Of a stretch of DNA of 37,931 bases, positions 2 through 15,291 are shown piece after piece. A model generated the notes under the pieces. It saw only the letters and a list, made by a program, of their open reading frames with translations, had not been told where the DNA came from and ran no database searches. Each line of letters opens with the position of its first letter. The stretch's first letter is position 1. The stretch comes from an uncultured Elusimicrobium sp. (GTDB lineage Bacteria > Elusimicrobiota > Elusimicrobia > Elusimicrobiales > Elusimicrobiaceae): assembly GCA_900319325.1 (NCBI GenBank), contig ONOD01000010.1:1-37931 (forward strand), in the 5' to 3' direction. The position numbers were made by a program, and so were the translations under genes.

Positions 2-739
2 GCAGGAGCCTCTAACTATTCTCGCATTTTTGATTGGAAAAAATTACGTGAAATCGCCGATTCTTGCGGCGCATATTTAGCATGCGATATTGCACATTAC
101 GCCGGGCTTGTAGCCGCAGGGGAATATCCTTCCCCTGTGCCGTATGCCGACGTGGTAACAACCACTACTCACAAGACGCTTCGCGGACCGCGCGGCGGGC
201 TTATTTTATGCAAAGAAAGTTTAGCCAAAGCTATTAATTCGGCTGTATTTCCCGGCACACAGGGCGGCCCCCTAATGCATGTAATCGCGGGCAAGGCCGT
301 TTGCTTTGGTGAGGCATTAAAACCGGAATTTAAGGCCTATCAACATCAAATTAAACTAAACGCACAAGCGTTGGCCGAAGAACTTAAAAAGCGCGGGTAT
401 CGCTTGGTAGCCGGCGGAACGGATTGCCACGTGATGTGCGTGGATTTACGTAGTAAAAAGATGACCGGCAAAGTAGCCGAAGCCGCGCTGGACAAAGCGG
501 GCATTACTGCCAATAAAAACACAATTCCGTTTGACCCGGAAAAACCGTTTGTAACCAGCGGACTGCGTATTGGAACACCCGCTATCACCACGCGCGGGAT
601 GAAGGAAGAAGATATGGCGCAAGTAGCCGCATTTATTGACGATGCGCTCTCACACGCCGAAGACGAAAACCATCTGGCTGAGATTGCCACGCAAGTAAAG
701 GAATTTTTGAAAAAATTTCCGCTCTATCCAGCGTTATAG
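2..739 (+). CDS. glyA: Serine hydroxymethyltransferase, 3' part
   Basis: PLP enzyme that interconverts serine and glycine while loading tetrahydrofolate with a one-carbon unit, in the cytoplasm. The frame is open from base 2, so the N-terminal part lies outside the window. The visible 245 residues begin [12 protein letters not shown] and include [12 protein letters not shown], then [14 protein letters not shown], where the lysine of THKT is the residue that binds PLP in this family. The C-terminal domain runs to the end with [15 protein letters not shown], also typical of GlyA. A strong hairpin terminator follows 25 bases after the stop, so this is the last gene of its transcript. An internal GTG at 137 gives a shorter frame, but the conserved family sequence continues upstream of it, so it is not the start. 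Identity is secure; only the 5' end is missing. Confidence 0.97.
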
Positions 740-868: not shown

Positions 869-1990
869 ATGACACGCAAAAATATATTTTTTCTGATTTT
901 GGTTTTAATTCTGCAAGCGCATCCTGTACATGCCATAAAACCGGCACGTGTTAGAACAATCGTTTTGCGTCGCACGGCAAATGTATCTAGCCAGTCTGCT
1001 CGCGCTAATTCCCTTGCCCGATTGAGACTTCTTGGCCTGCAATCCGATAGCCCCTCTTTAATCCATCAGTCCTATCAATCGGCTATTCCAGCCCGTTTAT
1101 CAAACGCTGTATTTGAGGTTCAAATTTCAAAGACTCCGCGTAATACCGCTTCTGCCTTTGCTCTGGATATAGGGGGCCGAACCATTGGCGTTACAGCTGC
1201 GCACGTAATGGAAGCTATCCGCCACAATCCTTTTGCCAAAGTCAAAACAGAAAACGGAGACATTATAGCCCCCATCACGACGTTTCGTATTGGGAATAAA
1301 AAAGGGAACGATATCGCTATTTTTGAAATTCCGCAAGAGATTTTACCCCATATTCAAGTATTGTCCCCGGCCCGCGAACTGCCTGCCGTAGGATCGGAAA
1401 TTCAATCCCCTCGTTTTGTGTGGGGAAAACCCACATTTTTAAAACATGAAGACATTGTGTTTGCCGGGCAACACCGTATCCTGCTACGTAATCAAATTCA
1501 TCAAGATATAACCGGCGCTTGTGGTTCCCCTATACTGGTTAACGGAAAAGTAGTTGGCGTACATGTAGGTTCCTTCTCTAAACAAGCAATATCTACTATC
1601 TCTTGGAATCAACTCCTGCAGGACAATTACATCCTTCCGCAAAATTCTTTTCATGTAGCCTCCCCTATTGAGCATGCCTTTCAATTGGCTGCACAGGAAA
1701 TAAGTCCCGCCGGGGTTCCGCTTAAAGTATTAGGAAATCCGGTACATTTAATGACTCCGCAAGAATATCTTTCTTCTATTACTCTTTTAAGAAACGGTCA
1801 CATAGAAAAAACATATTATGCGCACCCGTTTATGAATTTTGATAAGTTGGAAGAATTTTTTGAATTGCAAGAAAACGATGTTTTACGCATTCAAGTTGAA
1901 ACACCGCCGACAATCACACAACGTGCTCAAACTTGGTTTTACGATGTAAATGTTTCAACAGGAAAAGTTTCTTCCTTCCAACTCAAATAG
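869..1990 (+). CDS. Secreted chymotrypsin-fold protease with a cysteine nucleophile (paralogue 1)
   Basis: A 373-residue protein with a signal peptide (residues 1 to about 22, ending HPVHA) and a basic linker to about residue 75. A PA-clan protease domain follows. The His motif is GVTAAHV (H112), the Asp motif GNDIAIFEIP (D148), and the nucleophile motif TGACGSPIL. Aligned with chymotrypsin GDSGGP, the nucleophile position is C218, not serine. Serine S220 occupies the next-but-one site, where chymotrypsin has glycine. A C-terminal domain of about 110 residues begins near LGNPVHLM and ends with DVNVSTGKVSSF. It is shared with the next two genes, which follow after 10 and 16 bases in one operon. 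It is probably periplasmic or extracellular. The fold assignment is strong from the triad and spacing. Cysteine activity is inferred from motif alignment, and a non-catalytic role cannot be excluded. The substrate is unknown. Confidence 0.85.
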   Translation: MTRKNIFFLILVLILQAHPVHAIKPARVRTIVLRRTANVSSQSARANSLARLRLLGLQSDSPSLIHQSYQSAIPARLSNAVFEVQISKTPRNTASAFALDIGGRTIGVTAAHVMEAIRHNPFAKVKTENGDIIAPITTFRIGNKKGNDIAIFEIPQEILPHIQVLSPARELPAVGSEIQSPRFVWGKPTFLKHEDIVFAGQHRILLRNQIHQDITGACGSPILVNGKVVGVHVGSFSKQAISTISWNQLLQDNYILPQNSFHVASPIEHAFQLAAQEISPAGVPLKVLGNPVHLMTPQEYLSSITLLRNGHIEKTYYAHPFMNFDKLEEFFELQENDVLRIQVETPPTITQRAQTWFYDVNVSTGKVSSFQLK

Positions 1991-2000
1991 GGCATAATTT

Positions 2001-2038
2001 ATGAAAAAATTATTCTTATTTCTATTGCTTGGTAATTT
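2001..2038 (+). repeat. 38-bp direct repeat, copy 1 (signal peptide start)
   Basis: The first 38 bases of paralogue 2 are identical to 3226-3263. Upstream and downstream sequence diverges quickly, so the identity covers the signal-peptide coding start only. Confidence 0.9.
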
Positions 2039-3209
2039 ATTACTTCCTTCGTATGCACATTTTAAAGGGATAAAGACATCCTTTGAAAGAACCCGCATCG
2101 GGAAGGTCGTTATTAAGCGCCCGTCCGTTTCTGATTTATCTCGTCGCGTAAATGAAATTTTTTACAATAAAATTCGTCGCATTTCCACAAACGCCATTGG
2201 ACCTTCTCACCAATCTCTCGCAAGAGAAACATCCTTTCATACCACTTTCTTGTTACGGTATAATGACCACCCCTTGTTGCCCGTCCGAAAGGAAGCCTCC
2301 GGTTTCGCCATTGCACTAAAAGATAAAAACGGAAATGAAAAAATATGGGGCGTAACCGCCGGGCACGTAGCGCGCAACATAAGCACACACAAAAAAGCTC
2401 GGAACAGATCCCCCCACATTAGAATACAAACAGACACCGGCGCTTTTGTCGTTGCTCCTATAGAGAAAATTTTTGTTGGTAATCCCGAAGGGATGGACAT
2501 CGCTCTTTTTGAAATCCCGCAAGAAGCCTTGCCTTATGTAACCGTATTGCAAGCTGCCGAGTATGCCCCTGTTGTTGGAGAAAAAGTTACAATCCAAGGT
2601 TTTTTGGCAGAACAAGGGGCCCCTTTTTCTTTAACTGATCAAACAGTTTTATTATCCACTTCTTCTAAAATATTTCTTAAAAAAACACCTTTGGAAGACA
2701 TGACAGGTTTTTGCGGTTCCCCCGGTTTTACAAATGGACGTGTTTCCATGGTATATATTGGGTTTAACAGCGGCCAAGTATTAGCTCAAAATGCTACTTG
2801 GTTTCATAAATTATCCCCTAAAATACAGGCTGCCATGTCGGGCGGTTTGCACTACGCTATCCCTATTAATATTGTGAAATTAATGGCAAAATCTATTGAA
2901 GAAACCGGCTCTTTGAATGAAGGCGGGATGATGATGAGAGTATTCGGCCATCCCGTCGTGCTGTTGCACCCCAACGAATCTATTGTTTTTATTGAACAAG
3001 TTAGAAACGGAGAAATCATTTCAAAGATTGAGGGCAGCAAATACTCCCCCATTAACCCCGAACAATTAGAATTGTTCTTTGATCTCCAAAAAAACGATAT
3101 ATTGCGTGTTTCACTTGATTCGTTCTCATTGGAACATCCTTTTCCGGCTGTGTCTATAGTTCACGATATAAACGTTTCTACAGGAAAAGTTACAACTACA
3201 TTTTTATAA
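2001..3209 (+). CDS. Secreted chymotrypsin-fold protease with a cysteine nucleophile (paralogue 2)
   Basis: A 402-residue second member of the tandem family. The signal peptide starts MKKLFLFLLLGNLLLPSYA, and a basic region rich in Arg and Lys (about 25-60) follows. The protease domain contains WGVTAGHVAR (H122), EGMDIALFEIP (D166) and MTGFCGSPGF (C238 in the nucleophile position). The shared C-terminal domain has GHPVVLLHPNE and ends DINVSTGKVTT. It starts 10 bases after paralogue 1 stops and has no convincing Shine-Dalgarno sequence, so it may rely on coupled translation. Its first 38 bases are identical to the first 38 bases of paralogue 3, while the mature proteins differ considerably. 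The triad is complete if cysteine is accepted as the nucleophile. Confidence 0.85.
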   Translation: MKKLFLFLLLGNLLLPSYAHFKGIKTSFERTRIGKVVIKRPSVSDLSRRVNEIFYNKIRRISTNAIGPSHQSLARETSFHTTFLLRYNDHPLLPVRKEASGFAIALKDKNGNEKIWGVTAGHVARNISTHKKARNRSPHIRIQTDTGAFVVAPIEKIFVGNPEGMDIALFEIPQEALPYVTVLQAAEYAPVVGEKVTIQGFLAEQGAPFSLTDQTVLLSTSSKIFLKKTPLEDMTGFCGSPGFTNGRVSMVYIGFNSGQVLAQNATWFHKLSPKIQAAMSGGLHYAIPINIVKLMAKSIEETGSLNEGGMMMRVFGHPVVLLHPNESIVFIEQVRNGEIISKIEGSKYSPINPEQLELFFDLQKNDILRVSLDSFSLEHPFPAVSIVHDINVSTGKVTTTFL

Positions 3210-3225
3210 AGGACTGCTATAACCT

Positions 3226-3263
3226 ATGAAAAAATTATTCTTATTTCTATTGCTTGGTAATTT
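3226..3263 (+). repeat. 38-bp direct repeat, copy 2 (signal peptide start)
   Basis: Identical to 2001-2038. It suggests recent duplication or gene conversion at the 5' ends of two neighbouring protease genes. Confidence 0.9.
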
Positions 3264-4389
3264 GCTACTCCCGCTGGATGCGGGCGGAATTAAACGCCCC
3301 GTGCTTAAAACCAGCCATCCTAAAAGTGTTGCTCATGCTTCACGAATCTCCGCACGACGTTTGCAACGAAAGCTCCTTCGCATTCCCCGCCTAACTACCA
3401 CAACAGAGGCTACCCCCAAAATACAAGCCGGGCATCCTGCATCTTTTACTTTTCAAATACAACGTTTCACGGACTTAGATGCCGAGACGGCCTCCGCCTT
3501 TGCCATCCAGTGGCGCGGAAAGCAATGGGGTGTTACAGCGGGGCACGTGATGAAAGCTATTAGCAGATCCCCTCACATAAGAATACAAAATGGGCCCGAA
3601 TCTTTATTGTTTCCCATTCAAAAATTTTTTATCGGAAATGCCAACAGCAACGGTCTGGACCTGGCTATTTTTGAAATTCCGCAAGAAGCTTCCCCTTTTA
3701 TAAAAATATTGGAGCCTTCTGCACGCCCTCCCATAACAGGGGAAAAATTGAACATCCCCGGATTTACTGACGGAGATCCTTTCTTTATATCCCAAGAAAA
3801 AGTCTTTATGACTACCCCTGCAAAATTATTGCTTCAAAAAACCATGCAAAGAGGACTTCGGGGTTTTTGCGGATCTCCTATTTTAGGGAAAAACAACAAA
3901 GTGCAAGCCATATACATCGGGTTTGTAAACAAAGAAATAGTGCCTCAATTAAGATGGATCAGTGATTTACCAACGGAAGTAATTATGAATATGCCTGCTT
4001 TCCATATGGCAATCCCCGTGCAAGAGCTGGGCAGAATGGTGGACATGGTGCAGGCCGGTTCCGCTATGAAAGCGGGAACAATGATGTATGCGCTTGGGCA
4101 TCCGGTTGGCATTTTGCACCCCAATGAATATATTATGTCTGTGGAACTCTTTCGCCAAGGTGAAAAAATAGGGAAAGTTCACAACAACCCGCTGGTGGAT
4201 CCCAACCGTTTAGAACAATTCTTTGAATTACAGGAAAACGATGTATTACGTATAACGCTCAACCGTCCGCAAACCTATGAAGTGCGGGATGCTTACGTAG
4301 CCTATGATATAAATGTGTCCACCGGGGAAGTAACTACACTGACGGAAAAGGATCTGTTTGGCTCTCCGGAAAACCCGATAATCCGATAA
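3226..4389 (+). CDS. Secreted chymotrypsin-fold protease with a cysteine nucleophile (paralogue 3)
   Basis: A 387-residue third member of the operon. It has a signal peptide MKKLFLFLLLGNLLLPLDAG and a basic pro-like region with ARRLQRKLLR near residues 43-52. The protease domain has WGVTAGHVMK (H107), NGLDLAIFEIP (D145) and LRGFCGSPIL (C215). The C-terminal domain has GHPVGILHPNE, LEQFFELQENDVLR and DINVSTGEVTT. It lies 16 bases after paralogue 2. The gene ends 14 bases before the convergent Sel1-repeat gene stops, and no clear terminator hairpin is visible in that gap. Divergence of the catalytic domains against constant His-Asp-Cys residues argues that the motif is kept by selection. Confidence 0.85.
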   Translation: MKKLFLFLLLGNLLLPLDAGGIKRPVLKTSHPKSVAHASRISARRLQRKLLRIPRLTTTTEATPKIQAGHPASFTFQIQRFTDLDAETASAFAIQWRGKQWGVTAGHVMKAISRSPHIRIQNGPESLLFPIQKFFIGNANSNGLDLAIFEIPQEASPFIKILEPSARPPITGEKLNIPGFTDGDPFFISQEKVFMTTPAKLLLQKTMQRGLRGFCGSPILGKNNKVQAIYIGFVNKEIVPQLRWISDLPTEVIMNMPAFHMAIPVQELGRMVDMVQAGSAMKAGTMMYALGHPVGILHPNEYIMSVELFRQGEKIGKVHNNPLVDPNRLEQFFELQENDVLRITLNRPQTYEVRDAYVAYDINVSTGEVTTLTEKDLFGSPENPIIR

Positions 4390-4403: not shown

Positions 4404-5528
4404 TTAGTTGGCTAACAACGCTTGGGCGGATTCGTTTCCGTTTTCGGCGGCACGCTCCAACCAAGAACGGCCCAACGCAGCGTTCCTTTTTACGCCGAGC
4501 CCTTTGGTATAAATTTGGCCCAGCACATATTGTGCGGAGGCATCATTTTGCTCAGCAGCTTGTTCAAAAAAACGGATAGCCAGCGGCACTGATTTATTTG
4601 TCCCCTGCCCTTGCAACAACATAAAACCCGTCATATATTGGCCTTGCGCGTGGCCTTGGGCGGCCGCATTGGAAAACCACGCAAACGCATCTTCAAACCG
4701 AGCAGGATTTTCCGTATAGGCAAAAATTCCCATTTGATATTGCGCCGCCGGATTTTTAAGTTCAGCAGCTTTTGCAAATAAATTAGTGGCTAGGGTTTCA
4801 TCTTTTTCTACCCCTTCGCCTTTAGCGTATTGATCGGCCAATTCATAAGCTGCCTGCGAAAGCTCCTCATTGGAAGCTTCCCACGCTTTTTTGAACCACG
4901 TAAACGCGGTATTGTCCTCTCGTAAGATGGGCAATCCGTACCGGTACGCTTGACCAATTTCCAGCTGAGTCTGCGGATCTTTTTCAACAGTTTGCAGGGC
5001 TTGCATAAAGCGATTCAAACTGTCATACAAAGTTGGATTCTCTGTGCTTAAAGCGTCCACTTTTGCCTTTGCGGGGCGGGAGTGATTTGCGGCAGCCTGC
5101 ATGTACCAATAGTATGCTTGCCCGGCGTGTTCAGGGACATTTTTGCCCTGCATATATTGATTGCCCAGTTCATACTGTGCCTCGGGATAATTATTTTGAG
5201 CCGCCGCTTGTAAATATGTGAGCGCGGCGGGAATATCCGCTTGCACCCAGTCCCCTTTGCTATAAATTTGAAATAATTGCCACGCCGCTTGTGCAGAACC
5301 CCCGGCAGCCGCTTGCTGATACCACTCCAGCGCTTGTTCTTTATTGGGTTTTGTGCCCTGCCCTTGTTCGTAGGCTTGGGCCACGGCCAATGCAGCCCCT
5401 TCATCACCGGATTGCGCCAATTTCAAATTCTTAGCAAATGCCCTTTCTTGCGGCGTGCGGTAAAAAGCAAATGTAAACAACCCAACTGTTAATAAAACGC
5501 CAATAAATACCTTCAAAAATGTTTTCAT
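4404..5528 (-). CDS. Membrane-anchored or secreted Sel1-repeat protein
   Basis: A 374-residue protein. A hydrophobic N-terminal segment (about residues 4-24) is a signal anchor or signal peptide. The rest is a run of Sel1-like (TPR-type) repeats of about 36 residues, seen as recurring A-x-x-W-Y-x-x-A-A-x-x-G, A-x-Y-x-L-G and Y-x-x-G-x-G-V patterns, for example ALEWYQQAAAGGSAQAAWQL. Sel1 repeats form alpha solenoids that bind other proteins. The start is the ATG at 5528, preceded by GGAG and followed by the hydrophobic segment. The frame stays open back to 5666, but that would add 46 residues without family character and overlap the upstream gene. A terminator hairpin lies just upstream, so it probably has its own promoter. 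The partner is unknown. Confidence 0.85.
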   Translation of the reverse strand: MKTFLKVFIGVLLTVGLFTFAFYRTPQERAFAKNLKLAQSGDEGAALAVAQAYEQGQGTKPNKEQALEWYQQAAAGGSAQAAWQLFQIYSKGDWVQADIPAALTYLQAAAQNNYPEAQYELGNQYMQGKNVPEHAGQAYYWYMQAAANHSRPAKAKVDALSTENPTLYDSLNRFMQALQTVEKDPQTQLEIGQAYRYGLPILREDNTAFTWFKKAWEASNEELSQAAYELADQYAKGEGVEKDETLATNLFAKAAELKNPAAQYQMGIFAYTENPARFEDAFAWFSNAAAQGHAQGQYMTGFMLLQGQGTNKSVPLAIRFFEQAAEQNDASAQYVLGQIYTKGLGVKRNAALGRSWLERAAENGNESAQALLAN

Positions 5529-5543
5529 AATTACTCCGCAATT

Positions 5544-5573
5544 AAAAAAGGGAAGCGCTATAAAGCACTTCCC
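5544..5573 (-). terminator. Terminator of the prohibitin-like gene
   Basis: Read on the minus strand: a 10-bp stem GGGAAGTGCT/AGCGCTTCCC with one G-U pair and loop TTAT, followed by TTTTTT. It sits between the prohibitin-like gene and the Sel1 gene. Confidence 0.85.
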
Positions 5574-5595
5574 CTCTATTATACTTTTTACGTAA

Positions 5596-6405
5596 TTATT
5601 TAGCCATGACAAAGGGCATTTGATCGCCCGCCAGATACGTTGGCATACGCCCATCCCATTTATCAATTGCTTTCAGCTGGGCTTCTACTTGGCGCAGTTT
5701 AATCAAATTATCCGAAACTACTTCCCGTTGCAAACGCAAAGATTTTGCCTCCGCTTCCGCTTGCAAAATTTTCTGCTCGGCCTCTTTCTTTACTTTTTCT
5801 ACCAAGTTGGTAGCGCGTTTAGCTTCTTGTTCGGCAATTTGTTTTTCTTCAACCGCTTTTAAGAATTGTCTGGAAAACTCAAAATTGGTAATGGCAATAT
5901 CAGAAACAATCACTTCTTTTTCTGCCATTTTTTCTTTCAAAATTTCATTGAGTTCGCGCGCCACTTCTACGCGGTTGGAAATCAAACTGTCGGCCGAATA
6001 CTTAGCGATTACCGCTTTCGTCCACTCTTCCACCATCGGTTTTAGAATGGTATTGGTATATTCCGGCCCCAGGTTGCGATAAATTGATTCTACCGTGTTC
6101 GGCAAAATACGGTGGTTGACGGCCAACGTCAAGCCCACAGTCTGCAAGTCTTTTGAAAAAGCTTCTGTATTAAAAGAATCTTTTTTAATACGCACGGAAA
6201 ATTTTTCTACCGTATCAATAAACGGCGCTTTAAAGTGAATCCCTTCGCCATAGGCGCCCACTAGTTTACCAAAACGCAGTTTAACGGCTACTGTACCGGC
6301 GGACACCGTAAAAAAAGAACTAATAGCCGTTGCTGCCAAAATAATTAACAACACCGGAATAAATACTACCGCCCCGCTTATTTTTGTAGGGGTAACATCT
6401 CTCAT
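5596..6405 (-). CDS. Prohibitin/SPFH-family membrane protein
   Basis: A 269-residue protein with an N-terminal transmembrane segment (about 11-33). The SPFH (band 7/prohibitin) domain follows, with VAVKLRFGKLVGAYGEGIHFKAPFIDTVEKF near 40-70. A charged helical region at about 180-245 (EEKQIAEQEAKRA, KVKKEAEQKILQAEAEAKSL) is a predicted coiled coil. SPFH proteins form large membrane rings and often modulate the FtsH protease or organise membrane patches. The order of domains fits HflC or prohibitin, but no hflK or ftsH is adjacent. Translation starts from a strong Shine-Dalgarno sequence (GAGGAGG). A terminator on each side makes it a single-gene unit. Confidence 0.9.
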   Translation of the reverse strand: MRDVTPTKISGAVVFIPVLLIILAATAISSFFTVSAGTVAVKLRFGKLVGAYGEGIHFKAPFIDTVEKFSVRIKKDSFNTEAFSKDLQTVGLTLAVNHRILPNTVESIYRNLGPEYTNTILKPMVEEWTKAVIAKYSADSLISNRVEVARELNEILKEKMAEKEVIVSDIAITNFEFSRQFLKAVEEKQIAEQEAKRATNLVEKVKKEAEQKILQAEAEAKSLRLQREVVSDNLIKLRQVEAQLKAIDKWDGRMPTYLAGDQMPFVMAK

Positions 6406-8413: not shown

Positions 8414-8968
8414 TTAATTTTCTTCTTTGGCCTGGCCTACTACTACACTAGCCGGGCGCAATACTTGGTCTTGCATCATAAACCCCATTTTCACTTCGTC
8501 TATGACAAGGCCGTCTTGTTTTTTATCTGCCGGAATCATCGCTACTACTTCTTGCGTGTCCGGGTTATACGGTTTGCCTTTAACCTCCATTTTGGTAATG
8601 CCTTCGGCACGAAAGGCCTTATCCAGTTCTGTTAAAATCATACGCATCCCATCTTGCAAAGCCTGGGCATCTTCCTTGCCAGTTTGCAACTGTTGTTGCT
8701 GACGAAGTAATACTTCGTACATCGGGAGCATTTTTAAGGCAAAGTCTTTTTTGCCATAAGCGATCAAGGCTGCTTTTTCACGTTCGGTGCGTTTGCGGTA
8801 GTTGTCAAATTCTGCGTATAGACGCACATACTGATCGCGGTAATCGGGTTCCGTTTTTTCAGCCGGGGCCGGTTCTTCACAGGCTACGGTTTCGGCCTGT
8901 TCTTGTGCCGGTTGTTGCTCGGTTAATTCTTCGTACCCTTCTTGATGTTTTTTGTTATGTTTACTCAT
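8414..8968 (-). CDS. grpE: Nucleotide exchange factor GrpE
   Basis: A 184-residue protein that releases ADP from DnaK. An acidic, Glu/Gln-rich N-terminal tail (about 1-45) is followed by the long dimerising helix. That helix contains YAEFDNYRKRTEREKAALIAYGKKDFALKMLPMYE, the family signature around residues 52-86. The beta domain near the C-terminus has KPYNPDTQEVVAMIPADKKQDG and VLRPASVVVGQ. The start codon overlaps the stop of the hrcA reading frame (ATGA), so grpE is translationally coupled to hrcA. The hrcA frameshift could therefore affect its translation, although the downstream hrcA frame still ends at the same place. Confidence 0.97.
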   Translation of the reverse strand: MSKHNKKHQEGYEELTEQQPAQEQAETVACEEPAPAEKTEPDYRDQYVRLYAEFDNYRKRTEREKAALIAYGKKDFALKMLPMYEVLLRQQQQLQTGKEDAQALQDGMRMILTELDKAFRAEGITKMEVKGKPYNPDTQEVVAMIPADKKQDGLVIDEVKMGFMMQDQVLRPASVVVGQAKEEN

Positions 8969-10033
8969 AAATCTTCGTCCTCATCCAGGGGCAGCGCGTT
9001 CCAGTGGTTCATAGACGCCTCTAGCAAACTACCAATATAATTCACTAGCGACATCACGCGCGTATATTCCATATGTTTAGGGCCGATGATGCCCAGCATC
9101 CCTACGGTTTTATCCCCCACACGGCACGCGGTAGACACAATGCTTAAATTTTTAAGTTCCTTAATGGAATTTTCACTGCCGATAGAAACGCTCATGCGTT
9201 TATCACTTTTATCCAGTTCGGCCAGTTTAGCATTGAGCAGCGAAGAAAAACGATCCCGCTCTTCCACTACGCGCATCATTTGTTTCAAATCTTCGTAATC
9301 GTCCTCGGTGGTATTTTCCAGGAGGCGTCCAATTCCTTCTACATATAGTTCATCGCCACCGGTTTGCGGGCGCTCCATATCTTTAAGCACCTGGCTGGCT
9401 ACGTCGGCTACGCCGGCCAGTTCGCGGTGCCCGGAGTGCAAGTATTGCCATAAAATTTGGCGCGCTTCGGCAAGCGTGTGCCCGGCAATTTAGTTTAGCG
9501 GGCGAGATTACCTCCGCCATGCGTACCGGCCAATGGCGCACCGCGCCGGATTCAGTTACCAAGACAGTTAGCATCGCCCCAGGGGCCAAGGGAATAAATT
9601 CCAAGCGTTGGATACGCTGATCATCCACTTGCGCAGTATACACAAACCCGGCCGCACCGGAAAGCATAGCCAGCAGGCGCGAGGTTTGCACTAACATATT
9701 GTTGACCTCGCTCACGCGGGCATCGTATTGTTTCTCAATTTGCTCGCGCTCTTTGGCAGCCATTTTTTGCACGTTGGCCAAATAATCCACATAATAGCGG
9801 TAGGCCTTATCCGTAGGGATACGTCCGCCGGATGTATGAGGCTGGTACAAATACCCTTCTTGTTCCAGTTCGGCCATAATATTACGGATAGTAGCGCTGG
9901 AAACATCCTTAAGTACCCCATCCGCAATCATTTGGGAACCGACCGGGCGACGGGTTTCCACATATTGTTGGACCACCCAACGCAAGATTTTTTCTTTCCG
10001 TGCTTTAGCAACTTCCGGTTTTAAAATACGCAT
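8965..10033 (-). pseudogene. hrcA: Heat-inducible transcription repressor HrcA, frameshifted
   Basis: HrcA represses heat-shock operons by binding CIRCE. The 5' part (10033 to about 9495) encodes the winged-helix domain: EKILRWVVQQYVETRRPVGS, SSATIRNIMAELEQEGYLYQPHTSGGRIPT and KAYRYYVDYL. It continues into the inserted dimerisation domain as far as VRMAEVISPAKLN. It then leaves frame, running to a stop near 9383. The rest of HrcA continues in another frame from about 9487: AGHTLAEARQILWQYLHSGHRELAG to YTRVMSLVNYIGSLLEAS and an acidic tail. The break lies at about 9487-9497. Comparison with the family suggests a few residues are also missing there, so a small deletion rather than a single-base error is likely. 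A sequencing or assembly error remains possible. The DNA-binding half is intact. Confidence 0.85.
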
Positions 10034-10261: not shown

Positions 10262-12241
10262 TCAATTCCCATAATACCACTCATCCATTTCGCATTTGGT
10301 GCGATCTTCATTCCAATAGCAGTATTCGTAATAAATTTCATTCCCGTTCTCCCCAAGGAAAGCTTTTCCCTCCCCATCATTTTGGAGACAACCCGTTCCA
10401 TCGGGGCTTACGTTGCTACCGCGACAATAGGTATACGTTACCTCAGAACCTAATGAATTATAATTCGACTCATGTATCTCATCATAAGTGGTGCATGTTT
10501 TCCCGTCCGCGCCGATGTTATTGCCACTGCAAACTTTGTATGAAGTCTCTTTTCCTGAATCATCATAGCTTCTTTCTTGTATTTCATCGTATTTGGTACA
10601 GGATTTTCCATCCGAGCTGATATTGCCGCCACTACATTGCTTGGTGGAAATTACGCGGCCATCAGAATCACGCTCGTATTCGGAAATTCTATCATACCTA
10701 TTACAGTTTTTGCCATCCGCCGTTAAATTGCTGGTAGTGCAATGTTTGTATGAGGTTTGATTCCCATCGGCGTCAACATCGTAGTCAGTTATATCGTCAT
10801 ATTTATTGCACGACTTTCCATCCGCACTTCTATTAGCACCCGTACATTTTTTATCAGAAATTCTATTCCCTTCTTGATCGTACTCATATTCATAAATATT
10901 GGTATATTTACTGCATGTTTGTCCATCCGCGCTCATAGCACTACTAGTGTTACAATATTTATAAGAAGTTTGATTTCCATTCTTATCATAGCTAGACTCG
11001 AATATAGAGTCATACCTCCGACAGGATTGCCCATCGGAACTTATAGTATTAGTCCTTTCACATATCTTGTCAGAAATTGTATGCCCATCTTCATCATACG
11101 TATATTCACGAATAAATCCGTACCTATCACAACTTTTCCCGTCGGCGCTGATTGTTCTACAATTTCTATATGTCTTATTCCCATCTTCGTCATATATATA
11201 GTCAGACATAATGCTATATCTTTGGCAACTTTTCCCGTCGGCGGCAACTTGGCCACAATTCCTATATGCGCTTTCGCGGCCCAACGAATCATAGTCTCTT
11301 TCTATAATGTTTTCATATCTGGCACAGCTTTGTCCGTCAGCACTGATATTAGCACCAGAACATGTTGTATAAAGAGTTGTCTTCCCAAAAGAGTTATAAA
11401 CATATTCGGCTATATGATCATATTTATCACAGGATGTTCCATCCCCACTTTTATTCTTTTCGTTGCATTCTTTATAGGAAAGAGTTTTCCCGTCCGAATC
11501 ATAATTATATTCACGGCATCCATTTGGTGAACAAGATATTCTTTTTATTTCCTTATTATTTTCATCGGTTACCACGCTCACACAATAGTCACGTTCGCTA
11601 TTGATGCTGAAACATACTTGTTTTGTTTTGGCATGCGTTGCGGGATCTTCTGTAATATTGCAAGTCGCCCCCATTTCTAATGCTTTGTCACAATTTGGCC
11701 CGTTTAACGCGGCCAGTTGCGTAGGCGTTAATCCTTTTCCCGCCCCTTCTAGTACAAATGTGTTGTATCCTGGTGTAATCACTTCGCCCAATTCTTTTAC
11801 TGCATGAAACGCCGTGCGGCACAACCAATCCGCTTGGGCGTCTTCCAGGCGGGCTTCGCAATGGACTTCCCCGGGAAATTGCGCGCTATGTTTTTGATAC
11901 ATAATAAGATTGTTTTTGCCGTTCAAATCACTACGGGTGGCAAAGGTATAGGCGTAATCAAGGTCGTTGCTTACATTCAAGGTCATATCGTTATTGCTTT
12001 CGGTGGTTACGTCCAAATCGCTAATAACGGGCGCATAGCCGCTGTGCGTCATATAATACGCTTCGTTCCCATCGCGAATAGCTTTGGTGGTGGGCATCAA
12101 ACTGCTAAAACGGCTCTTGAGTACTGCTTTTTGGTATTGCGGAACCGCCACAGCGGCCAAAACACCAATGATCAAAACAACTACCAAAAGTTCAATTAAC
12201 GTGAACCCGCCTTGCCAACCTTTATAACTATATTTGTTCAT
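10262..12241 (-). CDS. Giant pilin-like protein with eleven cysteine-rich tandem repeats
   Basis: A 659-residue protein. The N-terminus is a type III (class A) prepilin signal: a short basic leader ending GG, then FTLIELLVVVLIIGVLAAVAV with the conserved Glu at +5. Prepilin peptidase would cut after GG, and the helix would pack in a pilus or pseudopilus. Residues 35-160 resemble a pilin head (RFSSLMPTTKAIRDGNEAYYM). From about 243 to 618 there are eleven copies of a roughly 35-residue unit. Each has YD-x-x-G-x-x-x-x-Y-K-x-C, then SADGKSC and x-x-Y-D-x-I-x-E, giving two cysteines 10-13 residues apart per unit. A short cap ends in EWYYGN. Typical pilins have 130-200 residues, so this would be a pilus-displayed or secreted fibre. 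Its promoter region is shared with protease 4. The repeat function is unknown. Confidence 0.85.
   Translation of the reverse strand: MNKYSYKGWQGGFTLIELLVVVLIIGVLAAVAVPQYQKAVLKSRFSSLMPTTKAIRDGNEAYYMTHSGYAPVISDLDVTTESNNDMTLNVSNDLDYAYTFATRSDLNGKNNLIMYQKHSAQFPGEVHCEARLEDAQADWLCRTAFHAVKELGEVITPGYNTFVLEGAGKGLTPTQLAALNGPNCDKALEMGATCNITEDPATHAKTKQVCFSINSERDYCVSVVTDENNKEIKRISCSPNGCREYNYDSDGKTLSYKECNEKNKSGDGTSCDKYDHIAEYVYNSFGKTTLYTTCSGANISADGQSCARYENIIERDYDSLGRESAYRNCGQVAADGKSCQRYSIMSDYIYDEDGNKTYRNCRTISADGKSCDRYGFIREYTYDEDGHTISDKICERTNTISSDGQSCRRYDSIFESSYDKNGNQTSYKYCNTSSAMSADGQTCSKYTNIYEYEYDQEGNRISDKKCTGANRSADGKSCNKYDDITDYDVDADGNQTSYKHCTTSNLTADGKNCNRYDRISEYERDSDGRVISTKQCSGGNISSDGKSCTKYDEIQERSYDDSGKETSYKVCSGNNIGADGKTCTTYDEIHESNYNSLGSEVTYTYCRGSNVSPDGTGCLQNDGEGKAFLGENGNEIYYEYCYWNEDRTKCEMDEWYYGN
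10388..11515 (-). repeat. Eleven tandem ~105-bp coding repeats of the pilin-like gene
   Basis: The repeats correspond to residues 243-618. The second cysteine of each unit falls at residues 271, 306, 338, 371, 407, 443, 478, 513, 548, 583 and 618. The period is therefore 35 residues in most units, with two shorter (32, 33) and two longer (36, 36). The copies have diverged at DNA level, so the array is old or diversified. Confidence 0.9.
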
Positions 12242-12377: not shown

Positions 12378-13469
12378 ATGAAAAAAATTATTTTTGTTTT
12401 TCTATTGGTCGCTGGTTTTTTTGTGAATGTTTCACACGCGCAAATATACAAAGGGCTTGTTAGAGGGGCCCGCTCCCGATTAAACAGATTACATCACGCT
12501 ATTGTAAAACCTGTAGGGGTTACCCCATGGCAAGTGGAACGTGCCGTCGTCCGCGCGGGGAAAGAGGCGCCGGCTGCACTTACTGTTCAAAGAGCCGCTA
12601 AAGCCATGATCCCGTTGAGGGATCGGCACCGCCTGGGACGATACTTCAACGTGAAAGCGACCGCCTTTATCATAGAAGAAACATACCAAGGGAAAAAATA
12701 TATTTGGGGGGTAACGGCTACTCACTATCGCTATAAAAAGCCCGCTATTCCCGTAAAGCGTTTTTCTTATGAACCCACCCCGTTTGTAGCACAGGGCCAT
12801 CTGCGTGCAAATGATGTATCCATTTTCCGTATTCCGGAAAGCTTGGCCGGGCAATTTGAGCCCTTAAAATTAGCACCGCACTCACCCGAGGTAGGCGAAC
12901 GGTTGTTTTCGCTCTCCTTTTTTGATAATCATTTTCAATACACGCCCGGACGCAAAGTGTTGCAAAAAACTCCGTTGCGGTTTACCACTTCCTTAAGAGC
13001 AGATATGGAAATTGAACGGGAAGGAGAATGCGGCTCCCCTTTAATCAATCAACAAGGGGAAGTGGCGGGCATGGTGGTAGGGGCATCGTATAATCGTCAA
13101 ATTGGGTATGCCGTGCCGGTAGATCAGATTCACCAAATTTTACGTGCCTATCACGAACGAGAATTTGCCTCGTTGCCGGTTCGCGTAAATGGAAAAGAAC
13201 TTTTCAAACTTGATGTTACCGAGGCTATCACGGATATAACTATAAAATATAAAGATGGTTCCATACTGACGCAAAACACCTATCACAAAGAAAATTTGTT
13301 GGATTATGAACACTTGGAAACCTTTATGGATCTATCGCAGGCCACGGAACTGCGGCTAACAATTAACACAAGGCCCTTTCAAACGGAAAATGCCGGGTTT
13401 AATATCTTTAACCGAGAAATCATTTACAACCTGCAAACGCAGCAAATGTCCACAAAATTGCTTCCTTGA
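12378..13469 (+). CDS. Secreted chymotrypsin-fold protease with a cysteine nucleophile (paralogue 4)
   Basis: A 363-residue, more distant relative of the three tandem proteases. The signal peptide is residues 1-21 (ending VSHA), and a basic region runs to about residue 85. The protease domain shows WGVTATHYR (H116), ANDVSIFRIPE (D146) and REGECGSPLI (C218 at the nucleophile position). It also has IGYAVPVDQI, resembling the late beta strand of bacterial trypsin-like proteases. The C-terminal beta domain is present but lacks the NVSTGK ending. A likely leaderless transcript starts under the control of the RGGTC boxes. It is divergent from the repeat-pilin, so the two may be co-expressed. As in the other copies, cysteine chemistry is inferred, not shown. 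Confidence 0.85.
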   Translation: MKKIIFVFLLVAGFFVNVSHAQIYKGLVRGARSRLNRLHHAIVKPVGVTPWQVERAVVRAGKEAPAALTVQRAAKAMIPLRDRHRLGRYFNVKATAFIIEETYQGKKYIWGVTATHYRYKKPAIPVKRFSYEPTPFVAQGHLRANDVSIFRIPESLAGQFEPLKLAPHSPEVGERLFSLSFFDNHFQYTPGRKVLQKTPLRFTTSLRADMEIEREGECGSPLINQQGEVAGMVVGASYNRQIGYAVPVDQIHQILRAYHEREFASLPVRVNGKELFKLDVTEAITDITIKYKDGSILTQNTYHKENLLDYEHLETFMDLSQATELRLTINTRPFQTENAGFNIFNREIIYNLQTQQMSTKLLP

Positions 13470-14305: not shown

Positions 14306-14334
14306 AATTTGTTATAGTGTGCAGAGGAGATTTT

Positions 14335-15291
14335 ATGAAGAAAACAATTTTATCCATTCTTTCTATCCTATTAGTACTGGCGGGATGTACATCTAAAGAA
14401 CAAAATGAAAAAATCCGCGCTTATTGGCAAGAGCAAGCAGGCTCTTTAGTGCTTCGCGGTTTAGCTATGCGCCCAACGCAAGCCATAAACCCTTTACAAG
14501 GCAAAATGCCCCCGGTGGATGCAAACGGCAACCCCCTATTCACGCCGCAAGAACAAACCGAAACTCAAGATCCGCAAATGCCCAAACCCGAGGATGCTAC
14601 CCAAACGCAAACGGCCCCCAAGCGGGAACCTATCAAAGCCGTGCTCTTTGTTCATTCTGACTCTCCTGTATGCAAACAATTAAAAGCAGACCAATGGGAT
14701 ACTTCTTTTCAACAAACCTACCAAGGGAAAGTAACCTTGGTGCAATATGATATGAAAAATCCCGCCAGCAAGACCGCCTTGCAAGAGAAAATGAAAAAGC
14801 ATAAACTCTCTTCCGTTCCAACACCTGCTCTGTTTATAGGTAATCACGTGCTAACTAATTATCCCTTCCAAGGGGTAGATAAGGCTGTTCAAGAAGCTTT
14901 AATGGCACCTGCCACTCTCACACGCACGGCAAACCGGCAAGGCAAAAAACAATCTTCACAATATATGGAAATCGTCATGGAAAAGCCCGTCAAAGAAACC
15001 GTGAATACCAAAGCATCCGCCAAGGACCGTAAAGCCATGGAAACCGCTTTTGCCACAGTACAGGCCGACAACCAAAAAACACTGAGCGATATTGAAATGA
15101 TGTTTGGCGCCAGCACCCGTGCACAGGCGGTCAGCATCATCAACGAAAACGAACGTTTATTGAAAAACAAAATGGGTACCAGCGCTACGTACAAGGCTTA
15201 TTTATCCGCACAAGCACGTATACTCAAAGCGCAAGAGCAACAACTCAATGAATTAATGCAACGCAACGCGCGCAATATTCGGTCTATTTAA
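14335..15291 (+). CDS. Lipoprotein with a thioredoxin-like domain lacking the second cysteine
   Basis: A 318-residue protein with a lipoprotein signal (MKKTILSILSILLVLAGC; lipidated Cys18). A Pro/Gln-rich linker follows (about 50-95). A thioredoxin-like domain comes next: IKAVLFVHSDSPVCKQL with a single cysteine instead of CxxC, and VPTPALFIGN, which resembles the cis-proline loop. The C-terminal third is charged and probably helical (about 220-318). The start is the ATG at 14335, with AGAGGAG upstream; a GTG at 14317 in the same frame would add six residues ahead of the lipobox and overlap TATAGT at 14313-14318. It is likely anchored in the outer or inner membrane facing the periplasm. The thioredoxin call rests on sequence pattern only, and redox activity is doubtful. 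Confidence 0.75.
   Translation: MKKTILSILSILLVLAGCTSKEQNEKIRAYWQEQAGSLVLRGLAMRPTQAINPLQGKMPPVDANGNPLFTPQEQTETQDPQMPKPEDATQTQTAPKREPIKAVLFVHSDSPVCKQLKADQWDTSFQQTYQGKVTLVQYDMKNPASKTALQEKMKKHKLSSVPTPALFIGNHVLTNYPFQGVDKAVQEALMAPATLTRTANRQGKKQSSQYMEIVMEKPVKETVNTKASAKDRKAMETAFATVQADNQKTLSDIEMMFGASTRAQAVSIINENERLLKNKMGTSATYKAYLSAQARILKAQEQQLNELMQRNARNIRSI

Follow-up and report, generated by a model that had tools for sequence, protein, structure and literature searches.

Cysteine in the nucleophile position of an exported clan PA protein family of Elusimicrobiaceae

In the published phylogeny of clan PA, the peptidases of the chymotrypsin fold, cellular members use serine as the nucleophile and viruses have both serine and cysteine families (PMC4576821); how such nucleophile switches happen has been asked by engineering one in TEV protease (PMC4576821). 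A contig of an uncultured Elusimicrobium sp. (GenBank assembly GCA_900319325.1, contig ONOD01000010.1, positions 1 to 37,931; the whole stretch is referred to as the window) raises the question of whether bacteria have made the switch themselves: it encodes four paralogous proteins for which the original prediction, based on the sequence alone, proposed a cysteine in the Ser195 position. The observation is confirmed, and sequence and predicted structure support its interpretation as far as they reach. We consider it likely that the four proteins and their family are exported cysteine-type clan PA peptidases, with catalysis predicted from the conserved residues and the modeled fold.

All four open reading frames and their motifs were located in the sequence as described, each on the forward strand. 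The putative triads are H112-D148-C218 in paralogue 1 (869..1990; 373 amino acids), H122-D166-C238 in paralogue 2 (2001..3209; 402 amino acids), H107-D145-C215 in paralogue 3 (3226..4389; 387 amino acids), and H116-D146-C218 in paralogue 4 (12378..13469; 363 amino acids). The interval 869-4389, given originally for the set, holds the first three genes, and paralogue 4 lies outside it. In the same order, the histidine motifs read VTAAH, VTAGH, VTAGH, and VTATH, the aspartate motifs NDI, MDI, LDL, and NDV, and the nucleophile motifs GACGSP, GFCGSP, GFCGSP, and GECGSP; the nucleophile codon is TGT in paralogue 1 (1520..1522) and TGC in the others (at 2712, 3868, and 13029). Paralogues 2 to 4 share 32-34% and 21-25% identity with paralogue 1.

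Using a search profile built from the four paralogues, we sampled 90 Elusimicrobiaceae genomes from six genera. The domain set taken from the fetched DNA comprised 130 open reading frames and 137 domain rows, a few of which represent the same gene in overlapping loci. Far from being a rare variant in a serine column, cysteine filled the nucleophile position in 129 of the 134 aligned domains, with H in two, A, W, and Y in one each, and serine in none (three further rows were gaps). The histidine column contained 130 H, 2 S, and 1 Q, and the aspartate column 119 D, 14 N, and 1 A. The 14 rows with asparagine belong to one subfamily that has kept the cysteine, a combination that is easier to accept if the nucleophile is a thiol. 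In an alignment of 51 representatives, which share 16-44% identity with the first and do not include four Cys-lacking genes, the only invariant columns were H112, G216, C218, and G219.

The GxCGS motif has a serine two residues beyond the cysteine, and an artefact could in principle take the form of a misalignment hiding this serine as the nucleophile, or of a sequencing or decoding error. The column of Ser220 is variable, however, containing S in 99, G in 25, A in 7, C in 2, and I in 1 of the domains, whereas the cysteine column is conserved, and members with CGGP align exactly like GDSGGP. We rejected Ser220 as a shifted nucleophile, in agreement with the original argument that its position does not fit. 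The cysteine is encoded by TGC in 104 and TGT in 15 of approximately 119 motifs found across dozens of independent genomes. The genome of the window (1.27 Mb, 87% complete) also encodes a small, normal Ser-type PA protein (SPSSSGSPVFN), so the cysteine is no decoding artefact, and we give an artefact of either kind negligible weight.

A disulfide role for the cysteine was rejected as well. Each window paralogue contains exactly one cysteine, that of the triad, which makes an intramolecular disulfide impossible and removes one of the objections anticipated in the prediction. Across the family, the catalytic cysteine is the sole cysteine of the mature protein in half of the members, and a second one, 15 residues downstream, is present in just 27 of the 137 rows.

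Several points weigh against reading the family as peptidases. The peptidase activity of the Cys-type members is predicted, from sequence and structure models, and we judge their biological role only by their export, their copy number, and their habitat. A few members are without the triad, so not every member need be an enzyme. Finally, window paralogues 1-3, taken singly, fall under the Pfam cut-off and just graze Trypsin_2, and the assignment of the fold therefore needed further evidence.

That evidence came from profiles and a structure model. P0001 was above the Trypsin_2 cut-off in the genome search, and among the 51 members, Pfam matches included Trypsin_2 (PF13365) in 38 (E≤0.01, best 1.1e-11), the arterivirus S32 profile in 13, and Trypsin in 6. 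The same matches included no Peptidase_C3, and the Pfam scan of members found no PDZ domain, a feature of the HtrA/Deg (S1C) proteases. Against the PDB, the family profile matched PRRSV nsp4 (1.6e-7), Deg2 (1.2e-6), V8 (1.3e-6), HtrA (8.6e-5), and 3C (1.8e-3); in the alignments to Deg2 and nsp4, the family's GVtAaH falls on the stretch of the catalytic histidine and CGSP on that of the nucleophile. An AlphaFold2 model of mature paralogue 1, computed with 12 alignment rows, had a pLDDT of 86 and a pTM of 0.85 and showed the two-barrel chymotrypsin fold. Searched with Foldseek, it produced 262 PDB matches at E≤0.001, of which the best 50 were all PA-fold proteins (among them HtrA/Deg, MarP, MamO, trypsin, and RGMoV protease). 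The structure prediction that had been proposed as a check thus places the proteins in clan PA, consistent with their order of His, Asp, and nucleophile and their GxxG nucleophile loop. The hidden Markov model alignments to solved PA proteases, the predicted fold, and the family-wide cysteine without serine together put the cysteine in the Ser195 position. In its nucleophile the family departs from S1 and Trypsin_2 and shares the cysteine of the viral 3C-like PA(C) peptidases.

A PA fold does not guarantee catalysis. PA pseudoproteases such as MamO, itself among the fold matches, are known, and members without the triad exist; the proteins might then be catalytically dead binding or scaffold proteins whose cysteine has a structural, metal, or redox-sensing role. 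Yet the histidine, the GxCG, and the aspartate are the most conserved columns in sequences that are elsewhere 16-35% identical, and the single cysteine leaves no room for a disulfide or a cysteine cluster. Histidine and cysteine have also been lost together: both genes without the histidine are without the cysteine (2/2), for which the chance is approximately 7e-4 under independent losses. The Cys-lacking paralogues, with H, W, A, or Y in the column (L051:10990-12207, L071:906-2033, L033:2688-3872, and L023:2649-3860), are likely pseudoenzymes retained in the arrays. As an account of the whole family, dead scaffolds seem unlikely to us.

Under the reading as peptidases, export would come first. 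Judged by eye, a Sec-type signal peptide starts each of the four proteins, for example, MTRKNIFFLILVLILQAHPVHA followed by IKP in paralogue 1, where the segment 869..934 encodes the signal peptide and cleavage is predicted after A22 (between HPVHA and IKP); the A22 column is nearly invariant in the family alignment. After removal of the signal peptide, the histidine would deprotonate the cysteine thiol and the thiolate would attack the peptide bond, forming a thioester acyl-enzyme with its carbonyl held by the backbone amides of GxCG, from which water would release the product. The setting would be the gut, whose reducing, anaerobic conditions may keep a thiol nucleophile reduced, and the genes in the multicopy arrays seem to have diversified into a set that could digest or process extracellular or surface proteins. 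The cysteine might also serve another reaction: cysteine nucleophiles favor aminolysis in other folds and the proteins are exported, so that acyl transfer, such as a sortase-type coupling of surface proteins, or deamidation could replace peptide hydrolysis. The PA fold is, however, overwhelmingly hydrolytic and the close relatives are proteases, and we regard this variant as improbable, more so than dead scaffolds.

If the members are cysteine peptidases, the next question is where the cysteine came from. In sequence and fold, their nearest relatives are serine PA enzymes (Trypsin_2/HtrA, V8-type, arterivirus nsp4, and S39) and not picornaviral 3C. With Trypsin_2 and the HtrA-Deg-MarP group (MEROPS S1C), which supply the matches of 38 of the 51 members and the top PDB fold matches, the family shares the fold, the His-Asp-nucleophile order, and export; it differs from them in the nucleophile, which is serine there, and in having another, all-beta C-terminal domain where HtrA has PDZ domains. 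The V8-type glutamyl endopeptidases and exfoliative toxins (S1B) are likewise exported and bacterial and have the same GxxGSP...GxVxGIHxG arrangement with the S1 histidine, but they use serine, come from Staphylococcus and Bacillus, and lack the C-terminal domain of the family. Arterivirus nsp4 (S32) is the best single profile match and the sobemovirus and barnavirus S39 proteases are the best viral fold matches, although both are serine enzymes in a viral polyprotein context. The picornaviral 3C and 3C-like proteases (clan PA; C3, C30, C4, and others) share the PA fold, the cysteine in GxCG, and the GxH for P1 Gln/Glu, but they process viral polyproteins in infected cells and are further from the family than the serine PA families are.

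The common GxCG...GxH signature and the weak profile match to 3C would fit a viral 3C-like cysteine protease acquired horizontally by a bacterium. Against such an acquisition, the closer sequence and fold matches are serine PA enzymes, the best named matches among viral predicted structures being barnavirus and sobemovirus serine proteases; Trypsin_2 but not Peptidase_C3 appears among the Pfam matches; the chromosomal location is conserved without any phage or IMG/VR match; and Ser-type relatives occur in the same phylum. These more distant relatives are HtrA-type proteins with GNSGGP and small PSSSGSP proteins, all with serine. In a quick tree of 88 PA domains, inferred with the nucleophile column removed and with L115 (GFSGGP) coded as serine, one branch splits Cys from Ser, requiring one change in comparison with 20 in shuffles, though the branch has just 76% SH-aLRT support. 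We consider a viral acquisition very improbable. As the nearest relatives are serine PA enzymes, the cysteine instead looks like the outcome of a separate cellular Ser-to-Cys switch without a link to 3C, which the sequences and the structure model would place in a serine PA ancestor within the phylum or earlier.

Because cellular members use serine in the published PA phylogeny, the family is, judged against that phylogeny, a new cellular variant of the clan; the survey outside the phylum is thin, a single scan for the pattern across 84,980 species that used a narrow profile, and similar Cys families may well exist in other lineages. We found no papers on these proteins in the open-access literature, which omits most subscription journals. 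In mammals, the peroxisomal protein TYSND1 has at one time been described as a cysteine endopeptidase, which is a lead only.

Each protein consists of the signal peptide, a linker of approximately 60 residues that includes a helix, the PA domain (approximately 190 residues), and the C-terminal domain (approximately 97 residues). In paralogue 1, profile and structure matches place the PA domain at approximately residues 82-270 (1112..1678), and a C-terminal domain of 97 amino acids follows (1697..1987); the corresponding C-terminal beta domains of paralogues 2, 3, and 4 are at 2910..3206, 4060..4386, and 13158..13466. Modeled alone, the domain of paralogue 1 is all-beta with a pLDDT of 92, and it had no fold match in the PDB at E≤0.001 (best E 0.94). 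It would probably serve in substrate binding or in anchoring the enzyme.

In V8 and 3C enzymes, the S1-pocket histidine of the GxH motif is established to recognize Glu/Gln at P1. The equivalent column, 232, contains H in 74 of the 134 domains (~55%), followed by Y (16), E (16), and F (12). By analogy, the GxH members, including paralogue 1 with its H232, probably favor Glu or Gln at P1, and another preference is expected of paralogues 2 and 3, which have Tyr in the column, and of paralogue 4, which has Val.

In a second genus of Elusimicrobiaceae, the PA domains sit in long proteins, for example, one of 1,363 amino acids with a single domain and an open frame of 5,734 amino acids with five. 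Another frame, of 3,968 amino acids (L163; G067:C1:727756-739660), starts with a signal peptide and has, towards its C terminus, four PA domains, of which three carry Cys and one carries Ala. Another family of the phylum also has a giant protein with a Cys-type domain (L116; GTCGAA), which groups with the giant proteins of the second genus. The giant proteins might process themselves between the PA domains. A wider picture would make the family a cysteine-using cellular branch of clan PA, created by a single Ser-to-Cys switch apart from the viral one, with lineage-specific exported arrays of V8/3C-like Glu/Gln specificity and with giant multi-PA fusions in the Elusimicrobium genus proper (the 3,968-residue form with three Cys among four PA domains) that cleave themselves into pieces in the manner of viral polyproteins; we regard this compound picture as rather doubtful.

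The family was present in 50 of the 90 Elusimicrobiaceae genomes (27 of the 51 good ones), and a single genome gave as many as 14 matches. The window comes from an Elusimicrobium-type gut metagenome-assembled genome, which in the GTDB set has rumen Elusimicrobium metagenome-assembled genomes as near relatives. In at least 13 genomes, one to four copies form an array that has glyA on one side and, on the other, a Sel1-repeat gene with Band7 after it. In the window, these conserved neighbors, identified from neighbor clusters, are the end of glyA (serine hydroxymethyltransferase; 137..739, forward strand) upstream and the Sel1-repeat gene (4404..5666, reverse strand) downstream, with Band7 at 5596-6405. 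Separate second arrays away from the glyA site were also seen, with seven consecutive family genes in L064 (G004:C16) and five in L073 (G023:C9). Among 67 pairs with dS < 2, dN/dS (ratio of nonsynonymous to synonymous substitution rates; NG86) ranged from 0.13 to 0.32 with a median of 0.22; the family is under purifying selection, constrained though fast-evolving. A mobile or phage origin was rejected, as the synteny is fixed and no copies were matched in plasmids, phages, or IMG/VR. A defence role was rejected too, since the PADLOC RT-Protease_XI matches of 20 members arise through the generic trypsin-like domain and there are no recurring defence neighbors.

The family offers a natural bacterial case of the Ser/Cys pair: the Cys clade has relatives with Ser within its phylum, down to the genome of the window itself, and it includes Asn-for-Asp and triad-less members. 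This case makes the switch directly testable in nature. It also provides numerous diverged enzymes whose specificity may be 3C-like, and if the cysteine reading is true, annotations of 'trypsin-like serine peptidase' in the phylum are wrong on the mechanism.

Paralogue 4, away from the array, adjoins tatD, and its relative in L043, from a second genome, is likewise next to this gene. Paralogue 4 also adjoins a gene on the reverse strand (10262-12241) for a protein that carries the N-methylation motif of type IV pilins and, at 659 amino acids, is far longer than a usual pilin. Further along the reverse strand, hrcA (8965-10033) is split across two overlapping frames (9383-10033 and 8965-9441) that divide the Pfam HrcA match between them, a frameshift or an assembly error. 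On the forward strand, a 324-amino-acid open reading frame without a Pfam match (14317-15291) has a relative in L043 that occupies the corresponding position next to tatD.
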